This document shows positions 1,891 to 47,253 of a stretch of DNA of 56,844 nucleotides, one piece after another (within the stretch, counting starts at the first letter, position 1; each line of letters begins with the position of its first letter). Source of the DNA: Thermovibrio sp. (GTDB lineage: Bacteria > Aquificota > Aquificia > Desulfurobacteriales > Desulfurobacteriaceae); the NCBI GenBank assembly GCA_015488335.1, contig WFNZ01000052.1:1-56844 (forward strand), read 5' to 3'. The position numbers were made by a program, and so were the translations under genes. Below the pieces are notes generated by a model. That model did not search any database and was not told the origin of the DNA. It saw only the letters and a list, made by a program, of their open reading frames with translations.

Positions 1891-1917
1891 AATGAAAAGG
1901 CCGCCAAAAGGCGGCCT
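1891..1917 (-). terminator. Hairpin terminator after the haem/HAMP gene
   Basis: A perfect 8-bp stem, AGGCCGCC / GGCGGCCT (1898-1905 with 1910-1917), encloses an AAAA/TTTT loop. On the minus strand it is followed by TTTCATTT. It sits 27 bases past the stop of the haem-domain gene and just before the aldolase RBS, so it should separate the sensor genes from the aldolase-tyrA-lysA operon. The plus-strand reading also has a CTCTTTT tail but no plus-strand gene ends here. Confidence 0.7.
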
Positions 1918-1943: not shown

Positions 1944-2936
1944 TTACTTCTTCCTCTTTCTCAACCTCTCCATAGCTATCTGGATACTGGCCCTTAATCT
2001 GTCTATTGCAATTGCCAGTTTTGTTATCTCGTCTTTAACCTCTTCCTCTTTCAATCCTCTTACTCCAAGGTCTAAGTCAAGTTTTCCAACGCTGATATCG
2101 TGGGCTGCCTGTGTAAGTTTTTCAATTGGTTTAATTATCTCGTTTTTGGCAAAGTACCAGAAGATTATGAATGCTAAGAGGAGTGCCAGGACGTTCCAGA
2201 TATCTACCATTTTCATGGCTGTTCCTATAAGGCTTGGTGGAACGATTATTACGCTGATGATTCCACGGAGCTCCCCTTCTTTGTACCCAGAGGCCCTCTT
2301 GAAAGCCTCTTCTCCATACTTTGCAATAATGGCCTTCTTGAAGATAGGATCAACCTGATCAGGGGTTCCATGACACTTTAAACAGCCTTTTTCAACCTTG
2401 AGGGCTTTTGCAAAACGGAACTTATCTCCGTCCCATCCCCAGTACTCTCCAGATGAGTTTCCTTTCTTAAGCTCTTTCTTTATTTCTCTTATAGCTTTTG
2501 CTTCCCATTTATCCGGTTTGTCTGTAGGTGATAGATACCTATCTGAAACTGCTTTAAAGCTCCAGCCGTACTCTATGTTTGTTAGCTCTGAAAGTTCCCT
2601 CGTTGCCAGAGCCGGGTTGTGGGCGTAGAAGTGGACTTCATCTAAGTTCTGGAGCTCTTCTCCTGTCCTGTAGCTTTTTAAAACACCGTTCTGGGCATCA
2701 AGTGCAACGAGGTAGCCGGTATCGGGGTTGTACTTGTCTTTCGTCCATACAGTTCCAAAGCCTGCTATCCAACGTCTGAAGATAATAACCTGTTGTGCAA
2801 TTAACCTACCTTCTTTTATAAGCTGTTGCTGGTAATTCTTGTCAAGGAGGTGGAGGAAGGAAGCAGTTGCAAGTGCAACAACTATTATGAAAACGATGAG
2901 AACTTTTTGTGAAATGCTCAGATTTTTAATTCCCAT
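1944..2936 (-). CDS. Tll0287-like (DUF3365) haem-domain protein with HAMP, no output domain
   Basis: A membrane protein with the layout of a bacterial receptor but no signalling output. N-terminal membrane segment at about residues 11-30; periplasmic Tll0287-like/DUF3365 region of about 210 residues holding a single c-type haem motif CLKCH (Cys185, Cys188, His189); second membrane helix at about 246-263; HAMP-like region to about 320; then a basic tail RKRKK. No methyl-accepting, kinase or cyclase domain follows, so any signal must pass to a partner. Its start overlaps the upstream PATAN gene by 11 bases, which suggests joint function. Such haem-PAS-like domains are known or proposed to sense redox state or gases; that role is inferred here. 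Confidence 0.8.
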   Translation of the reverse strand: MGIKNLSISQKVLIVFIIVVALATASFLHLLDKNYQQQLIKEGRLIAQQVIIFRRWIAGFGTVWTKDKYNPDTGYLVALDAQNGVLKSYRTGEELQNLDEVHFYAHNPALATRELSELTNIEYGWSFKAVSDRYLSPTDKPDKWEAKAIREIKKELKKGNSSGEYWGWDGDKFRFAKALKVEKGCLKCHGTPDQVDPIFKKAIIAKYGEEAFKRASGYKEGELRGIISVIIVPPSLIGTAMKMVDIWNVLALLLAFIIFWYFAKNEIIKPIEKLTQAAHDISVGKLDLDLGVRGLKEEEVKDEITKLAIAIDRLRASIQIAMERLRKRKK

Positions 2937-3816
2937 CAGCTCCTCCTCTCAACAAGAGTGTTATCTCATCCTTTAACCTCTCCCTGCAGCTCTCCCCCTC
3001 TATTAGGCATGTGTCTGGAATTTTCTCTATCAGGTTTTCAACGAAAGTGTCTATCATATTGACAGGAAGCTTTGTTATTTCCATATCTTCAAATGTTTCC
3101 TCAACTAAGAACTCTCCCATAGGTCCCATTGCTTCCACCAACAGTTCCCTTATTTTCTCAAAGACTTCTGGGTTAACGAAGCCTGTTTTTTCCTCTGTCT
3201 CTTTTTCTTTTGTTGTCGGTTTGGAAATTTCCTCTGCTTCCCTGATGAATCCTTTTTCTTTTAAAGCGTATATCTTTTCCAGTCCGCTCTTAAAAGATTT
3301 TGCTCCGTGAAAGATGGCTTTTGCAAGGTTATTTCCTTTAGATATGAGGGAGATAAGCTTCCAGCTTTCCGGATCTATAGTCACCGGTTCTCCTATGTCT
3401 TCTGAGAGTTCAAATACGGGGTTTCTCTTAAAGAGCTCCTTAAGTTTTTCTCCCATTTCATCCTGTTCTTTTGTGAAGTCCATCATAACAGCAATAGTAT
3501 CTATCTCTTCTATGGGTTCTGTTTTTACTTCTTTCTCCAGGAAAGAGAACCTTCCCTTTTCCCACATTGCAATGTAGTGGAGGATAAACTTTACGGCTTC
3601 CGATAGGGAGATTTCTCCTTTTCTTACTCTTTCCTTCAGCTCTTCTAAGAACGGGACGTTGGTTTTGAAGTTTATAACTTTCCCATCCTTCAGCTGTAGA
3701 GTTATACTTTCTCCATTGCTGTTGAGGAGAACCTCACCAGTTTTCTTCCCGATGCTTACTATCTGGAGCAGATCAAGAATTTCTGAGTAGGAGGAGAAAT
3801 CGCCCCTCAGTTCCAT
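2926..3816 (-). CDS. PATAN (DUF4388) domain regulator with C-terminal repeat domain
   Basis: A soluble 296-aa protein. Residues 1-95 (opening MELRGDFSSYSEILDLLQIV) have the DUF4388/PATAN pattern, a domain common in two-component and gliding/biofilm regulators. A middle region around residues 148-195 (DPESWKLISLISKG onward) looks like a small helical or winged-helix unit. Residues about 220-290 form a domain of the type L..AMGPMGEFLVEE...F...LIEKIPD, which also occurs twice in the divergent gene at 3886-4578. ATG at 3816 with GGGAG upstream. It overlaps the haem/HAMP gene, so the two are probably one operon. No DNA-binding motif or catalytic residues are evident. The function is inferred as intracellular signalling adaptor. 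Confidence 0.7.
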   Translation of the reverse strand: MELRGDFSSYSEILDLLQIVSIGKKTGEVLLNSNGESITLQLKDGKVINFKTNVPFLEELKERVRKGEISLSEAVKFILHYIAMWEKGRFSFLEKEVKTEPIEEIDTIAVMMDFTKEQDEMGEKLKELFKRNPVFELSEDIGEPVTIDPESWKLISLISKGNNLAKAIFHGAKSFKSGLEKIYALKEKGFIREAEEISKPTTKEKETEEKTGFVNPEVFEKIRELLVEAMGPMGEFLVEETFEDMEITKLPVNMIDTFVENLIEKIPDTCLIEGESCRERLKDEITLLLRGGADGN

Positions 3817-3838
3817 GGTATCTCCCAGTATTACTTCG

Positions 3839-3859
3839 GTGTTAGAATAATCCTAACAC
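3839..3859. promoter_or_regulatory. Inverted repeat in divergent promoter region (candidate operator)
   Basis: GTGTTAG (3839-3845) and CTAACAC (3853-3859) form a perfect 7-bp inverted repeat around AATAATC. The repeat occupies the centre of the 69-base gap between the divergent PATAN gene (start 3816) and the two-repeat gene (start 3886). A dyad with centre-to-centre spacing of 14 bases fits a dimeric regulator. A stem-loop in the leader is an alternative, since the arms could also pair in RNA with a 7-nt loop. TATACCAGTATA just downstream (3861-3872) may supply -10 elements. Confidence 0.45.
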
Positions 3860-3885
3860 ATATACCAGTATAGGAGAAGTGGGAA

Positions 3886-4578
3886 ATGGCAGTTTCCTAC
3901 AATGAGGATGTTAAACTGGGTAATTCTGTTTTTCACGTTCAAACAGAGTACTACAAAAAGAGCGGTAAGGTTGTTTCAAACATCTTTAAAGACGGCCTTT
4001 CTATAAAGAGGTTAGAAAAGAGTGTTGAAGAAGGAGCAGATGTTGATTCGGCTGTTGCTCAGTTTCACAGTTATGTTGTAGAACGTCTCAGGAGCAGCGT
4101 TAAAAAGAGAGTTTCTCAGAAGAAAGGAGTTCTTTCTATTTCTGATTCTGTTAGGGAGGAGCTCCTCAACGTTCTTAACCCATACTTCGGTGTTGCCTCT
4201 TCTTTTGTTATAGATGAGGCTCTTTCACATTCTGGAAGTGTTGATGATTTTCTTGATAACCTTCTTGAAGGATTACCGAGTAATATTAGAGATGCACTTA
4301 GTGAGAAACTCTCGTCCCTCCTTCCTTCAATTTCGGTTTCCCAGGTGCCTTTAGAGGAAAAGGGCGGTGTAGAGCCAGAAGAGTTTACCGAAGAGAAAAA
4401 GGAGAAAGCCCTTAAGATACTCTCAGATTATTTTGGAATAATGTCCCTTTCAGTTCTGGAAGATGCCCTTGAAGAGTGGAAAAGCGGAGACTACAGTGAG
4501 CTTGTAGAGCTCATAGTTTCCCACCTGAATGATGAGAAGGAGAGGGAAGAGCTCTACCATAGACTTATGTTTCTATAA
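3886..4578 (+). CDS. Uncharacterised protein with HVQTE-type N-terminus and two copies of the PATAN-gene C-terminal domain
   Basis: A soluble 230-aa protein that I do not recognise as a named family. Residues 1-50 form a compact beta-rich start with FHVQTEYY (16-23) and IFKDG. Two helical repeats follow at about 88-144 and 172-228. They align as L..LNPYFGVASSFVIDEAL...DDFLDNLLEGLPSN and L..LSDYFGIMSLSVLEDAL...SELVELIVSHLND. The same pattern closes the divergent PATAN protein. An acidic linker (155-172) separates the repeats. ATG has AGGAG eight bases upstream. The gene's last 14 bases overlap the 3' end of mqnA on the other strand. Shared domain and divergent promoter suggest it works with the PATAN/haem proteins. 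Confidence 0.75.
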   Translation: MAVSYNEDVKLGNSVFHVQTEYYKKSGKVVSNIFKDGLSIKRLEKSVEEGADVDSAVAQFHSYVVERLRSSVKKRVSQKKGVLSISDSVREELLNVLNPYFGVASSFVIDEALSHSGSVDDFLDNLLEGLPSNIRDALSEKLSSLLPSISVSQVPLEEKGGVEPEEFTEEKKEKALKILSDYFGIMSLSVLEDALEEWKSGDYSELVELIVSHLNDEKEREELYHRLMFL

Positions 4579-39839: not shown

Positions 39840-39856
39840 GAGCGGGGAGCTCCTAC
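39836..39856. terminator. Perfect hairpin overlapping both stop codons of nth and the CCG-subunit gene
   Basis: GTAGGAGC (39836-39843) and GCTCCTAC (39849-39856) form a perfect 8-bp stem with loop GGGGA. The nth TAG (39837-39839) and the convergent gene's TAG (39853-39855) both lie within the stem. On the minus strand the tail is TTTTCCTC, supporting termination of the sdh-like operon; the plus-strand tail TCCTTCTCT is weaker. Confidence 0.65.
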
Positions 39857-40701
39857 TCCTTCTCTACCTTAATCAGGTGGTGGGAAAGGCCAGACTTATC
39901 CTTATCAATCCCGAATGCGTAAGCCATAATCTCCGGCAGGAAAGAAGATGGAACCCTTGGCGGGTTTTCCATGTTTGTCTGGTAGATATCAAAAGATTTA
40001 AAACACAATGGGCAGGGAGTGGCTACTATGTCAGCTCCGACTTTCTTAACTCCGCCTAAAATCCTGTTCAGCTTTTTCAGAGTCATTGATTTATCTGTGA
40101 AGAAAGAGTGGTATCCGCAACAGGCATCCTTCCCTTCATAGTCATCAATAACTTCTGCTCCAAGGGCTTTTAATATCTCCTGTAGAGATGATGGGTTGTC
40201 GCTGTTGTCAACGGCAATCTCTTTCGGGTAGAGAACGTGGCAGCCGTAGTAGGCGGCAACTTTCCACCCCTTTAAAGGCCTTTTAACGGCCTGTTTTATC
40301 TTCTCATAACCGACAACATCTCTGAAGAAGTCTAAAAGATGGTATATTTTGCTCGTTCCTTTATACTCCAGCCCTTCCTCTTTAAGGAGCTCGTTTATCT
40401 CGTCCCTGAGCTTTTTGTTCGTATCAAGAGCCCTTTTTGCCTTTGCTATTACCATATAACAGGTATTGCACGAAACAAGCATATCAAGGCCTTCTTTCTC
40501 TGCAAGGGCAATGTTCCTTGCATTTATTGCGTAAGAGAGCTTCCTGTTCTCCTCGTCAATCGTGTTCCCGCCGCAGCAGGTTGTCTCCTCTAAAAGAACA
40601 ACGTCAACGTCTATCCGCTTGAACATCTCCTTCATCGTCTCAAACATGTGGGCATCCTGCCCCTGAAAGCAGCAGCCCTGGTAAAAGCCAACTTTAACCA
40701 T
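39853..40701 (-). CDS. CCG-domain subunit (SdhE/HdrB-like) of succinate/fumarate oxidoreductase, operon 1
   Basis: A 282-aa protein with two cysteine-rich CCG domains, as in HdrB and the SdhE subunit of type-E succinate:quinone reductases or thiol:fumarate reductase (TfrB C-terminal half). Set 1: GCCFQG (Cys10-11), TTCCGGN, SCNTC. Set 2: YGCHVLYP, DACCGYHS, TPCPLC. Such proteins bind noncubane or paired 4Fe-4S clusters and handle disulfides or quinones. No membrane helices are visible. It is the third gene of the minus-strand operon (start overlaps the SdhB-like stop, TAATG), and the paralogue at 46393-47253 is third in the opposite operon. Electron partner unknown. Confidence 0.88.
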   Translation of the reverse strand: MVKVGFYQGCCFQGQDAHMFETMKEMFKRIDVDVVLLEETTCCGGNTIDEENRKLSYAINARNIALAEKEGLDMLVSCNTCYMVIAKAKRALDTNKKLRDEINELLKEEGLEYKGTSKIYHLLDFFRDVVGYEKIKQAVKRPLKGWKVAAYYGCHVLYPKEIAVDNSDNPSSLQEILKALGAEVIDDYEGKDACCGYHSFFTDKSMTLKKLNRILGGVKKVGADIVATPCPLCFKSFDIYQTNMENPPRVPSSFLPEIMAYAFGIDKDKSGLSHHLIKVEKE

Positions 40702-41816
40702 TACTGACCTCCTAAAAGACCTTTCAACTTAGAGATTAACCCCCGTGAACTCCTGCCCTCCTCGTGGGCTTTGTCAACGATTGTGCAGATGTCTGCCTTG
40801 AAGATATCGCTTACCATCTTGTCAATCTTACGGACGTGGGAGTAGTCAAGGTCTAACGCCTTGTCTTCCTTGGATAGAATCTCAAGGTAGATATCCCTGA
40901 ACTTCATAAGACCTTTTGTAGGCTTTGGAACCTCCCAGACCTCAACTCCCATTTCAGTGTAGGCTTTTGTAAGTTTCTCCCTTGCTTCCTTATTCCCGTA
41001 AACCTCTTCTGGCAGGTAGAGTCTGTTTATCTGACCTGTAGCGTAGATCCAGTCAACGAAGTGCTTGAGCTTCTTGGCTCCCGGCTTGTCTGTAAACCCT
41101 TTCTTAACGGCCTGTCCTCTTAAGTTCTGTATGTCCTCTGCAGGTTTAACCCCTTTGGGACATACGTAAAGGCACTTCTGACACTGAACACAGCTCCAGA
41201 GACCTCCTGAGATTGCATACCTGATTCTCTTTTCTTTGGCTGTTTCTATGTCCCTCCTGTCAACCTGGAACCTGTAGGCCTTGGAAAAGGCAAATGGTCC
41301 CCTGTATCTCTCGTTGTCTGCAACAGCCTCACAGGCTGAGTAACATGAAAAGCAGAGCATACAGTGAATCTGGTCTTTGTAGGCCTCCATCTCTTCCGGA
41401 TAAATGATGCTCTCGTGCATCGGGTCTGTGGGAACAACCCTCGGGTCTGGAACCAACCAGGGAATAAGGGTTTTCATCTTCTCTATCGGCTTGTCTATAT
41501 CAACAACTAAGTCCTTGATAACCTTCATGTGGTTTAAAGGTTCTATCCTTAAAGGTTTTCCCTTCCAGGTCTCAACTAACTCTTTCATAGGAGTTTTACA
41601 GGCGAGTTTTGTCTTCCCGTTAACCTTCATTGAACAGGAGCCGCACACCTCACTCCTGCAGAAAGCCCTGAAGGCGAGGGTTGGGTCTAAGTTGTCCTTT
41701 ATATACAACAGGGCATTGAGGAGCGTTCCCTCTACAGGAACCTCATACTCCTTGTAGTAAGGAGCTTGATCTTTTTCAGGGTCGTATCTGAAAACCTGTA
41801 GAACGGCAGTTTCCAT
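40701..41816 (-). CDS. Succinate dehydrogenase/fumarate reductase iron-sulfur subunit, operon 1
   Basis: Electron-transfer subunit of 371 aa. The N-terminal 2Fe-2S ferredoxin domain has CRSEVCGSC and a later Cys in TKLACKT (residues about 58-75). Two further motif groups are CMLCFSCYSACEA (about 152-164) and CVQCQKCLYVCPKG (about 211-224) for the 4Fe-4S/3Fe-4S clusters. It is about 50 residues longer at the C-terminus than its paralogue (321 aa), with a helical KEDKALDLDYSHVRKIDKM tail. ATG has AAGGAGG upstream and lies 10 bases after the flavoprotein stop. Passes electrons between the FAD subunit and the CCG subunit. Confidence 0.9.
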   Translation of the reverse strand: METAVLQVFRYDPEKDQAPYYKEYEVPVEGTLLNALLYIKDNLDPTLAFRAFCRSEVCGSCSMKVNGKTKLACKTPMKELVETWKGKPLRIEPLNHMKVIKDLVVDIDKPIEKMKTLIPWLVPDPRVVPTDPMHESIIYPEEMEAYKDQIHCMLCFSCYSACEAVADNERYRGPFAFSKAYRFQVDRRDIETAKEKRIRYAISGGLWSCVQCQKCLYVCPKGVKPAEDIQNLRGQAVKKGFTDKPGAKKLKHFVDWIYATGQINRLYLPEEVYGNKEAREKLTKAYTEMGVEVWEVPKPTKGLMKFRDIYLEILSKEDKALDLDYSHVRKIDKMVSDIFKADICTIVDKAHEEGRSSRGLISKLKGLLGGQ

Positions 41817-41826
41817 AGCTTCCTCC

Positions 41827-43527
41827 TTAATACTTCCTTTCCTCTGGTGGGAACTTTGTAATCGTTACCGGCTTCCAGGAGAGCTCGTAGGTTCCATCCT
41901 CTTTTAACTTAACAACAGAGTGTTTCAGGAAGTTCTTATCGTCCCTCTTTGGGTAGTCCTTCCTCGCGTGAGCCCCCCTGCTCTCTTTCCTCTCAATTGC
42001 AGGAACGGCAATGGCTGGAGCCAGGTCAACGAGGTTTAAGAATTCAAGTGCTGTTATCAGGTCTGTGTTGAACTTCTTGCTGGTATCGTAAACCTTAACG
42101 TGTTTGGCCCTTTCCTTAATCTCCATCACTTTCTCAAGCCCTTCTCTCATAGACTTCTCTTCTCTGAAGACGCCAAAGTGCTTCATCATAACGTTGCCCA
42201 ACTCTTTCCTTAAGTCGGCAACCTTTTCTTTTCCATCTGCTTCCATAAGCTCCAGTATTCTCTTTTCATCGTCTTTTGCCTTTGCAACAGACGGGTTTGT
42301 TTCTGGAGCTTCATCTGCATATTTAACTGCCTCAAGGGCTGTAAGCCTTCCGTAAACGAGAACGTCAAGTAGGGAATTGCCGCCTAACCTGTTTGCACCG
42401 TGGACGGAGATGCAGGCACACTCACCTGCAGCGTAAAGCCCTTTAATCGGGGTTCTTCCCAGCTTATCTGCATCAATCCCACCCATTGAGTAGTGGGCAG
42501 TTGGGGCAATGGGAATCGGCTCCTTAACCGGGTCAACCCCCTCGTAGAGGATTGCGTGTTCCCTTGTCTGTGGGAGCCTTTCGTTTATCTTCTCTTCTCC
42601 TAAATGGGTAAGGTCTAAACAGATGTAGTCGCCGTTTGGTCCACATCCCCTTCCCTCGTCTATCTCCGTCTGAATAGCCCTTGCAACAATGTCTCTTGGG
42701 GCAAGCTCCATCTTCTCAGGAGCATACCTCTTCATAAAACGCTCGCCGTCTTTGTTCCTTAAGTATCCGCCCTCTCCGCGGGCACCTTCAGTGACCAGAA
42801 TTCCCGTTTTTGCAAGTCCCGTTGGGTGAAACTGGATAAACTCCATATCCTTAAGCGGTAAACCTGCTCTTAGAGCGGCGGCGGTTCCGTCTCCAGTGTT
42901 TCCAAGGGCGTTTGAAGTTCTATTCCAGTAAACCCTTGCATGTCCACCTGTTGCCAGGATTACCGCTTTAGTCTTTATGAGGTGAACACCGCCGTTCCTT
43001 ATGTCCCAGGCCGTTATTCCCTCTACCCTTTCGCCGTTGTGGATTATTGAGAGGAGGAACCACTCGTTTAAAAATGTTACGTTGTTCTTGAGGCACTGTT
43101 CGTAGAGGGTCTGGAGTATGTAGAAGCCTGTTTTGTCAGCAGCGTAGCAGGTTCTTGGGAAAGAAGCTCCACCGAACGGCCTCTGGGCAATCCTTCCGTC
43201 TGGCCGCCTTGAAAATGGAACACCCCTGTGGGCTATGTCGTATATAACGGCGGCCCCCATTTTGCACATTATGTCAACGGCGTCCTGATCTGCCAAGAAG
43301 TCGCTACCCTTTACCGTATCGTAGGCGTGGGCTTCGGGGCTGTCTCCAACTGAGTGGGTTAAAACGGCGTTAATTCCACCCTCTGCAGCTCCGGTATGGG
43401 AACGGGTGGGGTATACCTTTGTCATAACGGCCACTTTTAGTATCGTATTCTCCGCCGCCCAGAGAGCTGCGTATAGACCGGCTCCACCGCCTCCTACGAT
43501 TACTATGTCGTAGTCAAGCTCTACCAT
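41827..43527 (-). CDS. Succinate dehydrogenase/fumarate reductase flavoprotein subunit, operon 1
   Basis: Interconverts succinate and fumarate at FAD. The 566-aa protein starts with the dinucleotide fold [14 protein letters not shown], then RSHTGAAEGGINA (His of the usual covalent flavin site), [21 protein letters not shown], the substrate region [39 protein letters not shown], and catalytic [14 protein letters not shown]. It is first in a three-gene operon with SdhB-like and CCG subunits and no membrane anchor (SdhC/D) genes. The divergent operon's first gene encodes a 566-aa paralogue with the same end sequence PEERKY. Direction (oxidation or reduction) is not decidable from sequence. Confidence 0.93.
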   Translation of the reverse strand: MVELDYDIVIVGGGGAGLYAALWAAENTILKVAVMTKVYPTRSHTGAAEGGINAVLTHSVGDSPEAHAYDTVKGSDFLADQDAVDIMCKMGAAVIYDIAHRGVPFSRRPDGRIAQRPFGGASFPRTCYAADKTGFYILQTLYEQCLKNNVTFLNEWFLLSIIHNGERVEGITAWDIRNGGVHLIKTKAVILATGGHARVYWNRTSNALGNTGDGTAAALRAGLPLKDMEFIQFHPTGLAKTGILVTEGARGEGGYLRNKDGERFMKRYAPEKMELAPRDIVARAIQTEIDEGRGCGPNGDYICLDLTHLGEEKINERLPQTREHAILYEGVDPVKEPIPIAPTAHYSMGGIDADKLGRTPIKGLYAAGECACISVHGANRLGGNSLLDVLVYGRLTALEAVKYADEAPETNPSVAKAKDDEKRILELMEADGKEKVADLRKELGNVMMKHFGVFREEKSMREGLEKVMEIKERAKHVKVYDTSKKFNTDLITALEFLNLVDLAPAIAVPAIERKESRGAHARKDYPKRDDKNFLKHSVVKLKEDGTYELSWKPVTITKFPPEERKY

Positions 43528-43571
43528 ATATGAAACCTCCGGAAGATAAAGTTATAAGCATTTTATGAAAA

Positions 43572-43586
43572 TTAAGAGCTTCTTAA
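43572..43586. promoter_or_regulatory. 15-base palindrome, candidate shared operator
   Basis: TTAAGA-GCT-TCTTAA is an inverted repeat with 6-base arms and a 3-base centre. It lies 45 bases upstream of the minus-strand start and 133 bases upstream of the plus-strand start, in the only long gap between the two operons. A dimeric repressor or activator site is the simplest reading. The regulator is not identified. Confidence 0.5.
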
Positions 43587-43588
43587 AA

Positions 43589-43608
43589 TTTTACAAAATT
43601 TTTACAAA
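43589..43608. repeat. Tandem TTTTACAAA direct repeat, one helical turn apart
   Basis: TTTTACAAA occurs at 43589-43597 and again at 43600-43608, giving an 11-base period. It abuts the palindrome. Side-by-side sites on the same DNA face, or A-tract curvature, are both possible. Confidence 0.5.
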
Positions 43609-43719
43609 TAGTTAAACTGGAACGATTTATCCGTTGAAAATTCTGTTTTTCGCGTGTTTTCTATAATTTTTCAAAGGCAATAAAAGAATTAAAGAAATTT
43701 CATAAAGCAAGGAGGATCT

Positions 43720-45420
43720 ATGCTTCAGTTTGACATTTTAATCGTTGGGGCTGGGGGTGCCGGTCTTTACGCTGCCCTTGAAACGAGTAAAAGGAAAGGG
43801 TTGTCTGTAGCTGTTCTCTCTAAGGTTTATCCTACCCGGTCACACACGGGGGCTGCCCAGGGTGGTATAAACGCCGCCCTTGGAAACGTTGCTCCAGATA
43901 GCCCTGAGAAACACGCCTACGACACAGTGAAAGGTAGCGACTTTTTAGCTGATCAGGATGCTGTTGAGCTAATGTGTGAAATGGCTCCAAAAATCATAAG
44001 GGAAATGGAGCACATGGGTCTTCCATTCTCAAGACTCAAAGATGGGAGAATTGCGCAAAGGCCGTTCGGTGGAGCTTCCTTTCCGAGAACGTGTTACGCT
44101 GCCGATAAGACAGGTCACGTTATGCTCCAGACCCTCTATGAGCAGTGTTTGAAAAACGGAGTGAAGTTTCTTAACGAGTGGTTTCTCCTTTCTATTGTCC
44201 ATAACGGAGAAAGGGTTTCTGGCGTTGTAGCAATGGATTTGAGGAGTGGAGAGATTCACGGCATTCGTGCAAAGGCTGTAATTCTGGCGACAGGCGGTCA
44301 CGCAAGGGTTTACTGGAATAGAACTTCTAATGCCCTTGGAAATACTGGAGACGGAACAGCTGCCGTTTTAAGGGCCGGTTTGCCTCTGAAAGATATGGAG
44401 TTTGTCCAGTTTCACCCGACAGGTTTGAGGAGGACGGGTATTCTCGTTACTGAGGGTGCCCGTGGAGAGGGCGGTTACCTGATTAACAATAAAGGTGAAA
44501 GGTTTATGAAAAAGTATGCTCCTGAAAAGATGGAGCTTGCTCCGAGGGATATGGTTTCAAGGGCTATAGAGACGGAGATAATGGAGGGAAGGGGATTTAG
44601 AGATGATGAGGGAAACGAGTTTGTCTACCTTGACTTGAGGCACCTTGGAAGGAAGAAGATTCTTGAGAGGCTTCCTCAGATAAGGGAGCTGGCCATTGAC
44701 TTTGAAGGTGTTGATCCTATAGAGGAACCCATTCCCGTTCGGCCGACTGCCCACTACTCAATGGGTGGGATTGATGCAGATAAGCTGGGAAGAACCCCGA
44801 TTAAAGGGCTTTACGCTGCAGGTGAGTGTGCCTGCATCTCCGTCCACGGTGCAAATAGACTTGGTGGGAACTCACTCCTTGACATAGTTGTTTTCGGGAA
44901 ACTCTCTGGCGAGGATGCCATTAACTATGTTTCAGAAATTGGTTTTGCTCCCTTTGATGAATCTGAAGTTAAGAGGGAAGAGGAGAGGATTGACAGTCTG
45001 TTTTCTTCAGACGGAAAAGAGAAGCTGGTAGATCTGAGGAGTGAGCTTAGTGACGTTATGAGCTATGGCGCCGGCATTTTCAGGGAAGAGAAGAAAATGA
45101 AAGAAGCCCTTGAGAAGGTAAGGGAGATTAAGGAAAGGGCTAAACACGTTAAGGTTTACGATGGGGAGAGGACCTTTAACACGAATCTACAGCAGACCTT
45201 AGAGTTTTTAAACCTTGTTGAGATTGCCGAAACGATAGTTCTTCCGGCTCTGGAGAGAAAGGAGAGCAGGGGAGCTCACTACAGGACGGACTACCCTAAA
45301 AGGGACGATGAAAACTTCCTGAAACACTCAGTTGTTGAGAGAGGAGAGGATGGGGAGCTCCGCCTCTCATGGAAGCCCGTCGTAATCACCAAATACCAGC
45401 CAGAGGAGAGGAAGTATTAA
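43720..45420 (+). CDS. Succinate dehydrogenase/fumarate reductase flavoprotein subunit, operon 2
   Basis: Paralogue of the flavoprotein at 41827-43527, also 566 aa. It shares [90 protein letters not shown] and [14 protein letters not shown], ending PEERKY. Differences cluster in the N-terminal substrate-capping region and the C-terminal helices (for example [20 protein letters not shown]). ATG has AAGGAGG upstream. First gene of the plus-strand operon with SdhB-like and CCG genes. One copy may favour succinate oxidation and the other fumarate reduction, which is inference. Confidence 0.93.
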
Positions 45421-45430
45421 GGGGGATAGA

Positions 45431-46396
45431 ATGGAGAAGAGAGAGGTTCTTTTCAGAATAAAGCGTTTTAACCCTAAAAAGGACGAAAAGCCTTACTTTC
45501 AGGAGTATAAGTTAACTGTTCCAAAGGGTATGACGGTTCTTGAGGCCCTTCAACAGATAAAGGATACTCAAGATCCAACCCTTGCTTTCAGGGCTTTCTG
45601 CAGGAGCGCAATCTGCGGCTCCTGTGCCGTTAAGGTAAACGGTTTCCCAAAACTTGCCTGCAAAACCCAGATTTTCAACGAGCTTGACAAGTTTGGAACG
45701 GATACCTTAACACTTGAACCCCTTGATAACATGGAGATTATAAGAGACCTGATTGTTGACTGGGATAAGCCCTTTAAGAGAATGGAAGAGATGAAGCCCT
45801 GGTTGGTTCCAGACCCTGAGGTTGTTCCAAAAACCTTAGACGAGGAGAGTAGAGTTTATCCCAACGAACTTAAGAAGTTTGACTCCTTCACAGACTGTAT
45901 TCTCTGCACTTCTTGTTTCTCCTCCTGTACGGCCACTCAGATTGACGAGAACTACGGTGGACCGTTCCAGCTTGCGAGGGTTTACAGGTTTGCAGTTGAT
46001 CCTAGGGACGCCCTGAAGGCTGAAAGGTCAAAAATTGGCTACGCCTTTGATATGTGGAACTGTGTTCGTTGCAACAAGTGTGCAGACGTCTGTCCCAAAC
46101 ACATCTCTCCCGTTGATGGGATTATGAAGTTGAGAGGTCTTTCCATAGATGTTGGCCTGAAAGACAACCCAGGAGCAAGGCACGTTATGGCCTTCTACAA
46201 ATCCCTACTTGAGTCCGGTATGCTCAACGAGGTTCTTCTTCCCCTTAGAACTAAAGGAATCAAGGGAGTTCTTGAGAACCTGCCTGTTGGAATAAAGATG
46301 ATCCTCAGAGGGAAAGCCCACTCGCCGGTTATGAAGCCGATTGGAGAGCACGAAACACTTATTAAGGTGATGAAGGCCGCTATGGAGGTGGAGTGA
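45431..46396 (+). CDS. Succinate dehydrogenase/fumarate reductase iron-sulfur subunit, operon 2
   Basis: A 321-aa electron-transfer subunit parallel to the one at 40701-41816. 2Fe-2S motif CRSAICGSC with a later Cys in PKLACKT; second motif group CILCTSCFSSCTA; third CVRCNKCADVCPKH. Motif spacing is the same as in the paralogue, but the C-terminal tail is about 50 residues shorter and lacks the charged helix. ATG at 45431 with GGGGATAGA upstream; it starts 10 bases after the flavoprotein stop and overlaps the CCG gene by 4 bases (ATGA-type). Confidence 0.9.
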   Translation: MEKREVLFRIKRFNPKKDEKPYFQEYKLTVPKGMTVLEALQQIKDTQDPTLAFRAFCRSAICGSCAVKVNGFPKLACKTQIFNELDKFGTDTLTLEPLDNMEIIRDLIVDWDKPFKRMEEMKPWLVPDPEVVPKTLDEESRVYPNELKKFDSFTDCILCTSCFSSCTATQIDENYGGPFQLARVYRFAVDPRDALKAERSKIGYAFDMWNCVRCNKCADVCPKHISPVDGIMKLRGLSIDVGLKDNPGARHVMAFYKSLLESGMLNEVLLPLRTKGIKGVLENLPVGIKMILRGKAHSPVMKPIGEHETLIKVMKAAMEVE

Positions 46397-47253
46397 TGGG
46401 TAGATACGCCTTTTATCCGGGATGTGCTGCTAAGGGGGCTTCTAAAGAGCTTTACGAGTCAACTATTGCCGTTGCAGAGAAGCTTGGAATAGAGCTTGTT
46501 GAACTTCCACAGTTCAGCTGTTGCGGTGCTGGGGTTTTAGAAGAGGTTAAAGAAGCCGTTGACCTTGCCGTTAATGCAAGGAACCTTGCATACGCAGAAA
46601 AGGAAGGTCTGGACATAGTGACCGTTTGTAGCACCTGCCTTTTAGTCCTGAGGAAGACCAAGTATTTACTTGATAACGATGAAGATCTGAAAGAAGAGGT
46701 GAACGAAATTCTTTCTGAAGCTGGCCTTGAGTATAAGGGGACTGTTGACGTTAAACACTTCCACTGGGTTCTTTTAGAGGAGTTCGGAGAGGAGGGGCTT
46801 AGAAAAAGGGTTGTTAAGCCGCTTTCTAACTTAAAGGTCTATCCCTACTACGGCTGCCACACTGTAAGGCCTGAGAGTATTTTAGGTTTTGAGCCTTCAG
46901 AGAACCCTCAGTCTTTGGAGAAGATTATAAAAGCCCTTGGAGCTGAGCCCGTTTCCGGGGAGAGGAGACTTGAGTGTTGCGGTTTCCACGCCTTCTGGCC
47001 TGCTCCAAAAATGAGTATGAAGTTAACCGGTTTAAACCTTTTAGACGCCAGAAGAAACGGAGCAAACTGTATGACAACTCCCTGTCCTCTCTGCCACATG
47101 AACCTTGACGCAAACCAGTCAAGGGCACTAAAGGAAGTAGGAGAGAGCTTTAAGTTACCAGTTCTTCACGTTCCACAGCTTGTTGGATTGGCCCTTGGAA
47201 TTGAACCTAAGAAACTGGGACTTCACAGGAATATCGTTCCTGTAAACTACTGA
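46393..47253 (+). CDS. CCG-domain subunit (SdhE/HdrB-like), operon 2
   Basis: A 286-aa paralogue of the CCG subunit at 39853-40701. First set: YPGCAAKG (Cys11), FSCCGAG, VCSTC. Second set: YYGCHTVRP, LECCGFHAFW, TPCPLCH. It has a single Cys in the first loop where the other copy has two adjacent (GCCFQG), and PG in place of QG. No signal peptide or membrane helices. Likely carries two cysteine-rich clusters and is the exit or entry point for electrons (quinone, disulfide or another carrier). Ends at a strong GAGCTC-centred hairpin. Confidence 0.88.
   Translation: MMGRYAFYPGCAAKGASKELYESTIAVAEKLGIELVELPQFSCCGAGVLEEVKEAVDLAVNARNLAYAEKEGLDIVTVCSTCLLVLRKTKYLLDNDEDLKEEVNEILSEAGLEYKGTVDVKHFHWVLLEEFGEEGLRKRVVKPLSNLKVYPYYGCHTVRPESILGFEPSENPQSLEKIIKALGAEPVSGERRLECCGFHAFWPAPKMSMKLTGLNLLDARRNGANCMTTPCPLCHMNLDANQSRALKEVGESFKLPVLHVPQLVGLALGIEPKKLGLHRNIVPVNY

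Follow-up and report, generated by a model that had tools for sequence, protein, structure and literature searches.

The locus and the question it raises

How external signals are passed to MglA-type polarity GTPases in bacteria other than Myxococcus (Frz/RomR) is, to our knowledge, largely open, and we know of no recognised effector for Af1503, the model HAMP receptor. Both questions are touched by three adjoining genes from a Thermovibrio sp. genome (G000, 1.645 Mb in 70 contigs), which encode a membrane receptor, an adaptor and, divergently, a protein (P0003) with a RomY N-terminal (RomY-N) domain. The genes lie on contig C52, all 56,844 bases of which make up what is referred to here as the window. 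Together with its relatives, the locus offers a concrete and testable answer to both questions, in which a small adaptor domain, either encoded alongside the MglA switch or fused to its regulators, would read a HAMP-only receptor.

The locus fairly probably encodes a transmembrane receptor in split form, which passes its signal to a Ras-like bacterial GTPase switch of the MglA type, with the RomY-N protein as the local link to MglB. A sequence-only reading of the window had proposed a haem-sensing receptor signalling to a PATAN protein, with the divergent gene as a third component; taken as a whole, that interpretation is partly supported. It had placed the three genes exactly, as judged from the coordinates of the open reading frames (ORFs):

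1944..2936, minus strand: gene 1, the receptor; transmembrane (TM) helix, Tll0287/sCache_heme domain, TM helix, HAMP and a short tail, without output domain (Pfam PF11845 and HAMP; Tll0287 structure 5b82, E 9e-5)
2926..3816, minus strand: gene 2, the adaptor; PATAN/DUF4388 domain, winged-helix-like region and GP (STAC-like) domain (Pfam, orthologue alignment, structure model)
3886..4578, plus strand: gene 3, P0003; RomY-N protein with two GP-like helical domains (NF053858, E 2.5e-6; relatives in the family)
2926..2936, minus strand: end of the adaptor gene and start of the receptor gene, overlapping by 11 bp (ORF coordinates)
3817..3885: divergent intergenic region of 69 bp between genes 2 and 3 (coordinates)

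The overlap makes translational coupling of genes 2 and 1 likely. No sigma-70-like promoter was found within the 69-bp intergenic region.

The receptor ends at its HAMP domain

Gene 1 had been described as a receptor with a haem motif and a HAMP but no output domain, overlapping the PATAN gene, and Pfam and the 11-bp overlap bear this out. An N-terminal hydrophobic helix is followed by the Tll0287 domain (PF11845, E 1.9e-27, 96.9 bits, over the cutoff of the Pfam scan), a second hydrophobic helix and then the HAMP, with the following features:

2370..2384, minus strand: CLKCH covalent haem c motif, residues 185-189 (translation; kept in 11 of 11 orthologues checked)
1980..2141, minus strand: HAMP domain, the sole cytosolic domain of the receptor (Pfam HAMP, E 6e-7)
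1947..1979, minus strand: C-terminal tail (AMERLRKRKK region), common to acidobacterial HAMP-only receptors (SLKxAIERLRKR; alignments)

The HAMP stops at residue 319, leaving just 11 of the 330 residues behind it, and the receptor therefore has no output domain; the remaining five HAMP proteins of the genome each carry at least 283 residues beyond the HAMP. The receptor C-termini are alike across both phyla in which they were aligned, Acidobacteriota and Aquificota (RMRxSLKxAIERLRKR versus RLRASIQIAMERLRKRKK).

Tll0287 domains are c-haem Cache domains according to a 2026 preprint (PMC12889525), and the 'PAS-like' label previously attached to Tll0287/DUF3365 is outdated. In the same work a HAMP-linked member bound nitric oxide (NO) and formed no stable oxy complex, and a stand-alone member showed Cys/His ligation. 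The window receptor shares with these sensors the combination of c-haem Cache and HAMP, and differs from them in that its output sits on a separate protein. Its only cysteines are 185 and 188, both within CLKCH, unlike a stand-alone Tll0287 paralogue on contig C12 of the same genome (L205:1902-2501), which has two extra cysteines (16 and 66). As the receptor is HAMP-linked and has no cysteine outside CXXCH, in comparison with the stand-alone paralogue, NO is put forward as its haem ligand, tentatively and as a guess rather than a result.

The GP domain of the adaptor predicts HAMP-only receptors in two phyla

Gene 2 is the sole DUF4388 match of the genome and contains two recognisable domains at its ends:

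3457..3804, minus strand: PATAN/DUF4388 domain, residues 5-120 (PF14332, E 4.6e-12, 46.5 bits against a cutoff of 25)
2947..3180, minus strand: GP (STAC-like) four-helix domain with MGPMGEFL at the junction of helices 1 and 2 (A3/A4 profile; model helices; 5a1q by Foldseek and by sequence)

MGPMGEFL is invariant in the alignment of 15 gene 2 orthologues. In the structure model (pLDDT 83.6) the helices of the GP domain span residues 216-230, 232-245, 252-264 and 277-290, and MGP falls where the first two of them meet. No named family was matched at a useful E-value when the helical domain was scanned against Pfam. A PDB sequence search with the full alignments likewise returned nothing useful, and a weak phosphorylase match for A1 was dropped.

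A profile of the helical domain alone matched in 6 of 149 genomes of Acidobacteriota, and a GP profile built from both phyla gave 17 matches among 396 acidobacterial genomes. Sixteen of the 17 were DUF4388-GP proteins, each encoded directly 5' of a HAMP receptor gene; these receptors end 0-6 residues past the HAMP-tail profile, and in two of them Cache and HAMP were both called by Pfam. As a control, DUF4388 genes without a GP domain from the same genomes were considered, and none of 20 adjoined a HAMP-only receptor. The acidobacterial counts are not independent events, because many of the genomes are related, but against the control the contrast remains complete. Left out of the counts were the acidobacterial metagenome-assembled genomes G061 and G062, which have a RomY-N protein with two GP-like copies (RomY-2x) and a nearby DUF4388 gene (G061 without a GP match at threshold), and L193, a kinase-like frame with MGP. 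The latter (L193:1468-2586) ends in a GP domain (VMGPMAKIV) and has a Cache-like gene adjacent, which suggests other effector types.

Within Aquificota 77 of 136 genomes, belonging to 23 of 30 genera, contain the GP domain. At loci outside the PATAN-GP orthologues the GP gene adjoins a HAMP-tail gene in 15 of 16 cases, the remaining one lying at a contig end. The GP domain, searched for by itself, thus adjoins output-less HAMP receptors in two phyla, which strongly supports the predicted signalling of haem state through the HAMP to the PATAN protein. That the HAMP is read by the GP domain is considered very likely.

Both halves of the pair resemble Af1503 and Af1502

Af1502 of Archaeoglobus is a STAC domain whose helices 1 and 2 are joined by an LGPx(x)A motif. 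Its gene is translationally coupled to that of Af1503, a receptor in which HAMP alone faces the cytosol (PMC4834066). The arrangement in the window is alike in having a HAMP-only receptor and an adjacent, probably coupled gene for a protein with a four-helix domain (model helices within 216-290) and a motif of the LGPx(x)A type between helices 1 and 2. The motif reads MGPMG in gene 2, with G in place of the final A, and IGPMA, VGPLA or LGPVA at the same place in relatives. With Foldseek the gene 2 model matched Af1502 (5a1q) with a probability of 0.82 and a TM-score of 0.52-0.60 by target, and a GP profile compared with PDB sequences gave Af1502 as second-best match, aligned on its IGPIA stretch at a borderline E of 0.33. 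The best PDB match of the receptor-HAMP profile was Af1503 itself (4gn0, E 2.9e-14).

The two systems differ in that the STAC-like domain here ends a PATAN-winged helix protein (or follows another N-terminal part) rather than standing alone, without SLC5, and in that small GTPases and Roadblock proteins are encoded in the operons of relatives of the window locus; PMC4834066 names no small-GTPase or Roadblock output for Af1502. The receptor and the adaptor each show similarity to one of the archaeal neighbours. Each of these pieces is suggestive, and jointly they argue for a shared pairing logic.

Operons of sister families tie the pair to MglA-family GTPases

Gene orders were computed for two further groups of Aquificota, f4 and f3, which are read here as Aquificaceae and Hydrogenothermaceae. 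All six Aquificaceae loci that do not run off their contig have the order Roadblock/MglB-like protein, MglA homologue, GP adaptor, Tll0287-HAMP receptor. The MglA homologues match the MglA of the window's genome at E 1e-23 to 1e-48, the Roadblock protein exceeds the Pfam cutoff in the four of four tested, and Tll0287 is found at E 1e-27 to 1e-33 in all six. In Hydrogenothermaceae all seven loci encode a small TM-HAMP protein, a GP protein, a Roadblock protein (called in six), a DUF4388 protein and a small GTPase. By their gene content these operons tie the pair, with the same haem sensor included, to MglA-family GTPases, and the receptor-adaptor pair probably regulates a GTPase of this family. 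Sensor, adaptor, GTPase and Roadblock partner stand in one short operon in Aquificaceae, and reconstitution is therefore feasible.

These recurrent neighbours, GTPase and Roadblock genes, also bear on the possibility that the winged-helix-like middle of the adaptor binds DNA, the receptor holding or releasing a transcription regulator at the membrane with polarity proteins uninvolved. Foldseek matched the adaptor model to a winged helix, among other structures (2yu3, probability 0.92), and one acidobacterial homologue has weak matches to winged helix-turn-helix (wHTH) families. The adaptors of other Aquificota families are without a Pfam wHTH match and yet keep the GP domain and the HAMP partner, and regulation of transcription by the adaptor appears very unlikely.

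MglA and MglB of the window's genome, which match the Myxococcus xanthus proteins over nearly their full length (E 7.5e-76 and 1e-23), are encoded side by side on contig C35, unlinked to the locus. For the window's own family the link to the switch therefore rests on the sister families and on the RomY-N domain. In genome G013 an MglA paralogue, a RomY-N protein, a 76-aa ORF and a Roadblock protein are encoded in one run (L097:9201-11066), and at L098 and L099 a RomY-N gene adjoins a Roadblock gene.

The window's genome also encodes PilB/PilT-type ATPases, which would suit a different output, namely that the pair uses PATAN to act directly on the ATPases of the type IV pilus, in the way suggested for PixE and PilB1, with MglA dispensable and the RomY gene an independent neighbour. 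Cyanobacterial PATAN response regulators have been linked to PilB1 and to the direction of motility (PMC7690835), and RomY stands apart from the PATAN-receptor pair in one relative (G010). In Aquificaceae the adaptor gene directly follows those for MglA and Roadblock, and in the window's family 15 genomes have both RomY-2x and PATAN whereas 7 have neither (three of the 7 clearly incomplete); on these grounds direct action on the pilus is rather unlikely, and control through an MglA-type switch is preferred.

PATAN genes have been noted near MglA/MglB genes before (PMC4316618, with Makarova 2006 as cited there); a term search of that paper gave neither HAMP-only receptors nor the GP domain. The conservons CvnA-D of Actinomycetota (PMC4316618, PMC13343842) similarly combine a membrane sensor, a Roadblock protein and a small GTPase in one operon, but CvnA is histidine kinase-like, whereas the present system has no kinase and its HAMP would be read by a separate adaptor.

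A possible second GTPase set was seen on contig C68 of the same genome (L095:8408-10071), where a DUF4388-like protein, a 157-aa Roadblock-like protein and a 165-aa small GTPase are encoded in a row; this GTPase is related to that of the Hydrogenothermaceae-like GP operons.

Gene 3 combines a RomY N-terminal domain with two relatives of the GP domain

Three segments were recognised in P0003:

3886..4113, plus strand: RomY N-terminal domain (the 'HVQTE' module), beta4-alpha in the model (NCBIfam NF053858 RomY_Nterm)
4144..4323, plus strand: GP-like helical copy 1, PYFGVASS at the turn of helices 1 and 2 (hhalign to the PATAN protein C-terminal domain 86-88%)
4390..4575, plus strand: GP-like helical copy 2, YFGIMSLS (hhalign to copy 1 99%; to the PATAN protein C-terminal domain 80%, broad profile)

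The HVQTE module is present as reported earlier but is not nameless, since it is known as the RomY N-terminal domain. RomY_Nterm matched all 14 family members; the P0003 score of 27.8 bits is below the curated NCBI cutoff of 50, and P0003 is therefore named a RomY-N domain protein and not RomY. A hidden Markov model built from the gene 3 family recovered a canonical RomY-type protein (L154, E 1.9e-4). RomY stimulates MglB as the GTPase-activating protein (GAP) of MglA, a Ras-like GTPase, and this stimulation resides largely in the N-terminal domain of RomY (PMC9481161). P0003 belongs to the same N-terminal domain family and, as in M. xanthus, is the only RomY-N match in a genome with MglA and MglB; it differs from RomY in its C-terminal part of two GP-like helical domains, in adjoining a receptor-adaptor pair and in its score. 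On balance, P0003 may act as a co-GAP of MglB.

The helical repeat shared by genes 2 and 3, claimed earlier as three copies, was recovered, as the copies found one another in profile comparison; those of gene 3 have diverged. With profiles from within the family, copy 1 matched copy 2 at 98.9% (E 3.8e-17) and the PATAN protein at 86% (E 4.8e-6), and copy 2 matched the PATAN protein at only 13%, which is weak. When acidobacterial members were added these values became 88% for copy 1 and 80% for copy 2, or 93.6% jointly (E 2e-7), with a broad-profile score of 39 against 19 or less in 100 column shuffles; the homology of copy 2 is accepted on the broader profile only. A shared partner for the two repeat-bearing proteins is plausible, the binding being predicted from domain homology.

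A DUF668 match of P0003 (0.0015), below the cutoff and found in only 3 of 14 members, was taken as chance. Foldseek with the model of the RomY-N protein gave no match below E 0.01, and Pur-alpha-like repeats merely echo the beta4-alpha topology.

In another genus short RomY-N genes adjoin a prepilin-peptidase-like gene (GSFLNVCIYRLPREES...) at L046:7042-8496, L102:5865-7253, L103:5794-7098 and L047:7758-8948, which would link RomY-N to type IV pili. The domain also stands at the start of much longer proteins of 530-553 aa (L106, L107) and 331-346 aa (L045, L048, L104, L105).

Rearranged relatives and gene order

The sequence-only reading had made its case depend on the genes staying together in relatives. 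Among the Desulfurobacteriaceae the divergent RomY-PATAN pair is kept in 14 of the 15 genomes having both, and PATAN and receptor are adjacent in 13 of 15; since the flanking housekeeping genes are equally syntenic, this order is weak evidence alone, and it was rejected as the main argument. Rearranged relatives and other families provide stronger evidence. In G010 PATAN and receptor have moved off together, apart from RomY. In G009 PATAN is kept beside a shortened RomY and the receptor has left with aldolase-tyrA. G007 has lost the receptor, and its RomY is interrupted by a stop; in G004 (L204:840-1797) the receptor gene is broken, stopping directly after the haem motif, with a transposase-like ORF next to it near the contig end.

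Equal conservation of the flanking genes, and the separation seen in G010, would also suit a grouping of the three genes only through synteny of the ileS-tyrA region, with receptor and adaptor forming a pair and RomY-2x working elsewhere. The homology of the helical copies in the broad-profile comparison, the persistence of RomY beside PATAN in G009 after the receptor had left, and the co-occurrence of RomY-2x and PATAN in the family speak against this, and grouping through synteny alone is judged unlikely.

Proposed mechanism

In the split-receptor scheme preferred here, the periplasmic c-haem Cache domain, a putative sensor of NO or of redox state, would set the conformation of the effector-less HAMP. 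The HAMP and its short basic tail would be read in trans by the STAC-like GP domain of the PATAN adaptor from the same operon, and the adaptor would act on the MglA/MglB (Roadblock) switch. P0003 joins the N-terminal domain of RomY, a co-GAP of MglB, to two relatives of the GP domain, and its recruitment or release by either the receptor or the adaptor is therefore proposed. This would change GTP hydrolysis by MglA, and hence the behaviour of the poles or of the type IV pili.

Several observations weigh against this scheme. STAC membership of the GP domain is borderline in both comparisons (E 0.33; Foldseek 0.82). A control profile of the genome's five other HAMPs also ranks Af1503 high, at 28.7 against 56 bits; the rank is therefore discounted, being weak evidence by itself, and weight is given to the score gap and the tail alignment alone. 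To these are added the RomY_Nterm score below its curated cutoff, the position of MglBA on another contig in this family, and four genomes of one genus (g7) without PATAN-GP and RomY-2x; in two of these a diverged GP protein takes their place, paired with a HAMP-tail partner.

The pairings seen in at least two bacterial phyla suggest a general class, in which TM sensors ending at a HAMP would be read in trans by STAC-like GP proteins and so connected to Roadblock proteins and GTPases of the MglA family. Sensors (haem Cache, Cache or none) and effector parts would be interchangeable. Such a class is slightly favoured, and if true would point to an output for Af1503, an orphan among HAMP receptors. 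No description of a module with PATAN or DUF4388 together with HAMP was found in the open-licence literature, nor one of the receptor-to-GTPase route. The earlier term 'undescribed system' holds for the combination but not for its parts.

Flanking features

A GC-rich inverted repeat lies between the receptor gene and the aldolase gene:

1898..1917: GC-rich inverted repeat, terminator-like on the plus strand

Gene 3 and mqnA are convergent and their 3' ends share 14 bp (window 4565-4578). Elsewhere in the window (39853-47253) two neighbouring three-gene sets on opposite strands encode flavoprotein, iron-sulfur and CCG-domain-like proteins of the fumarate reductase/succinate dehydrogenase type.

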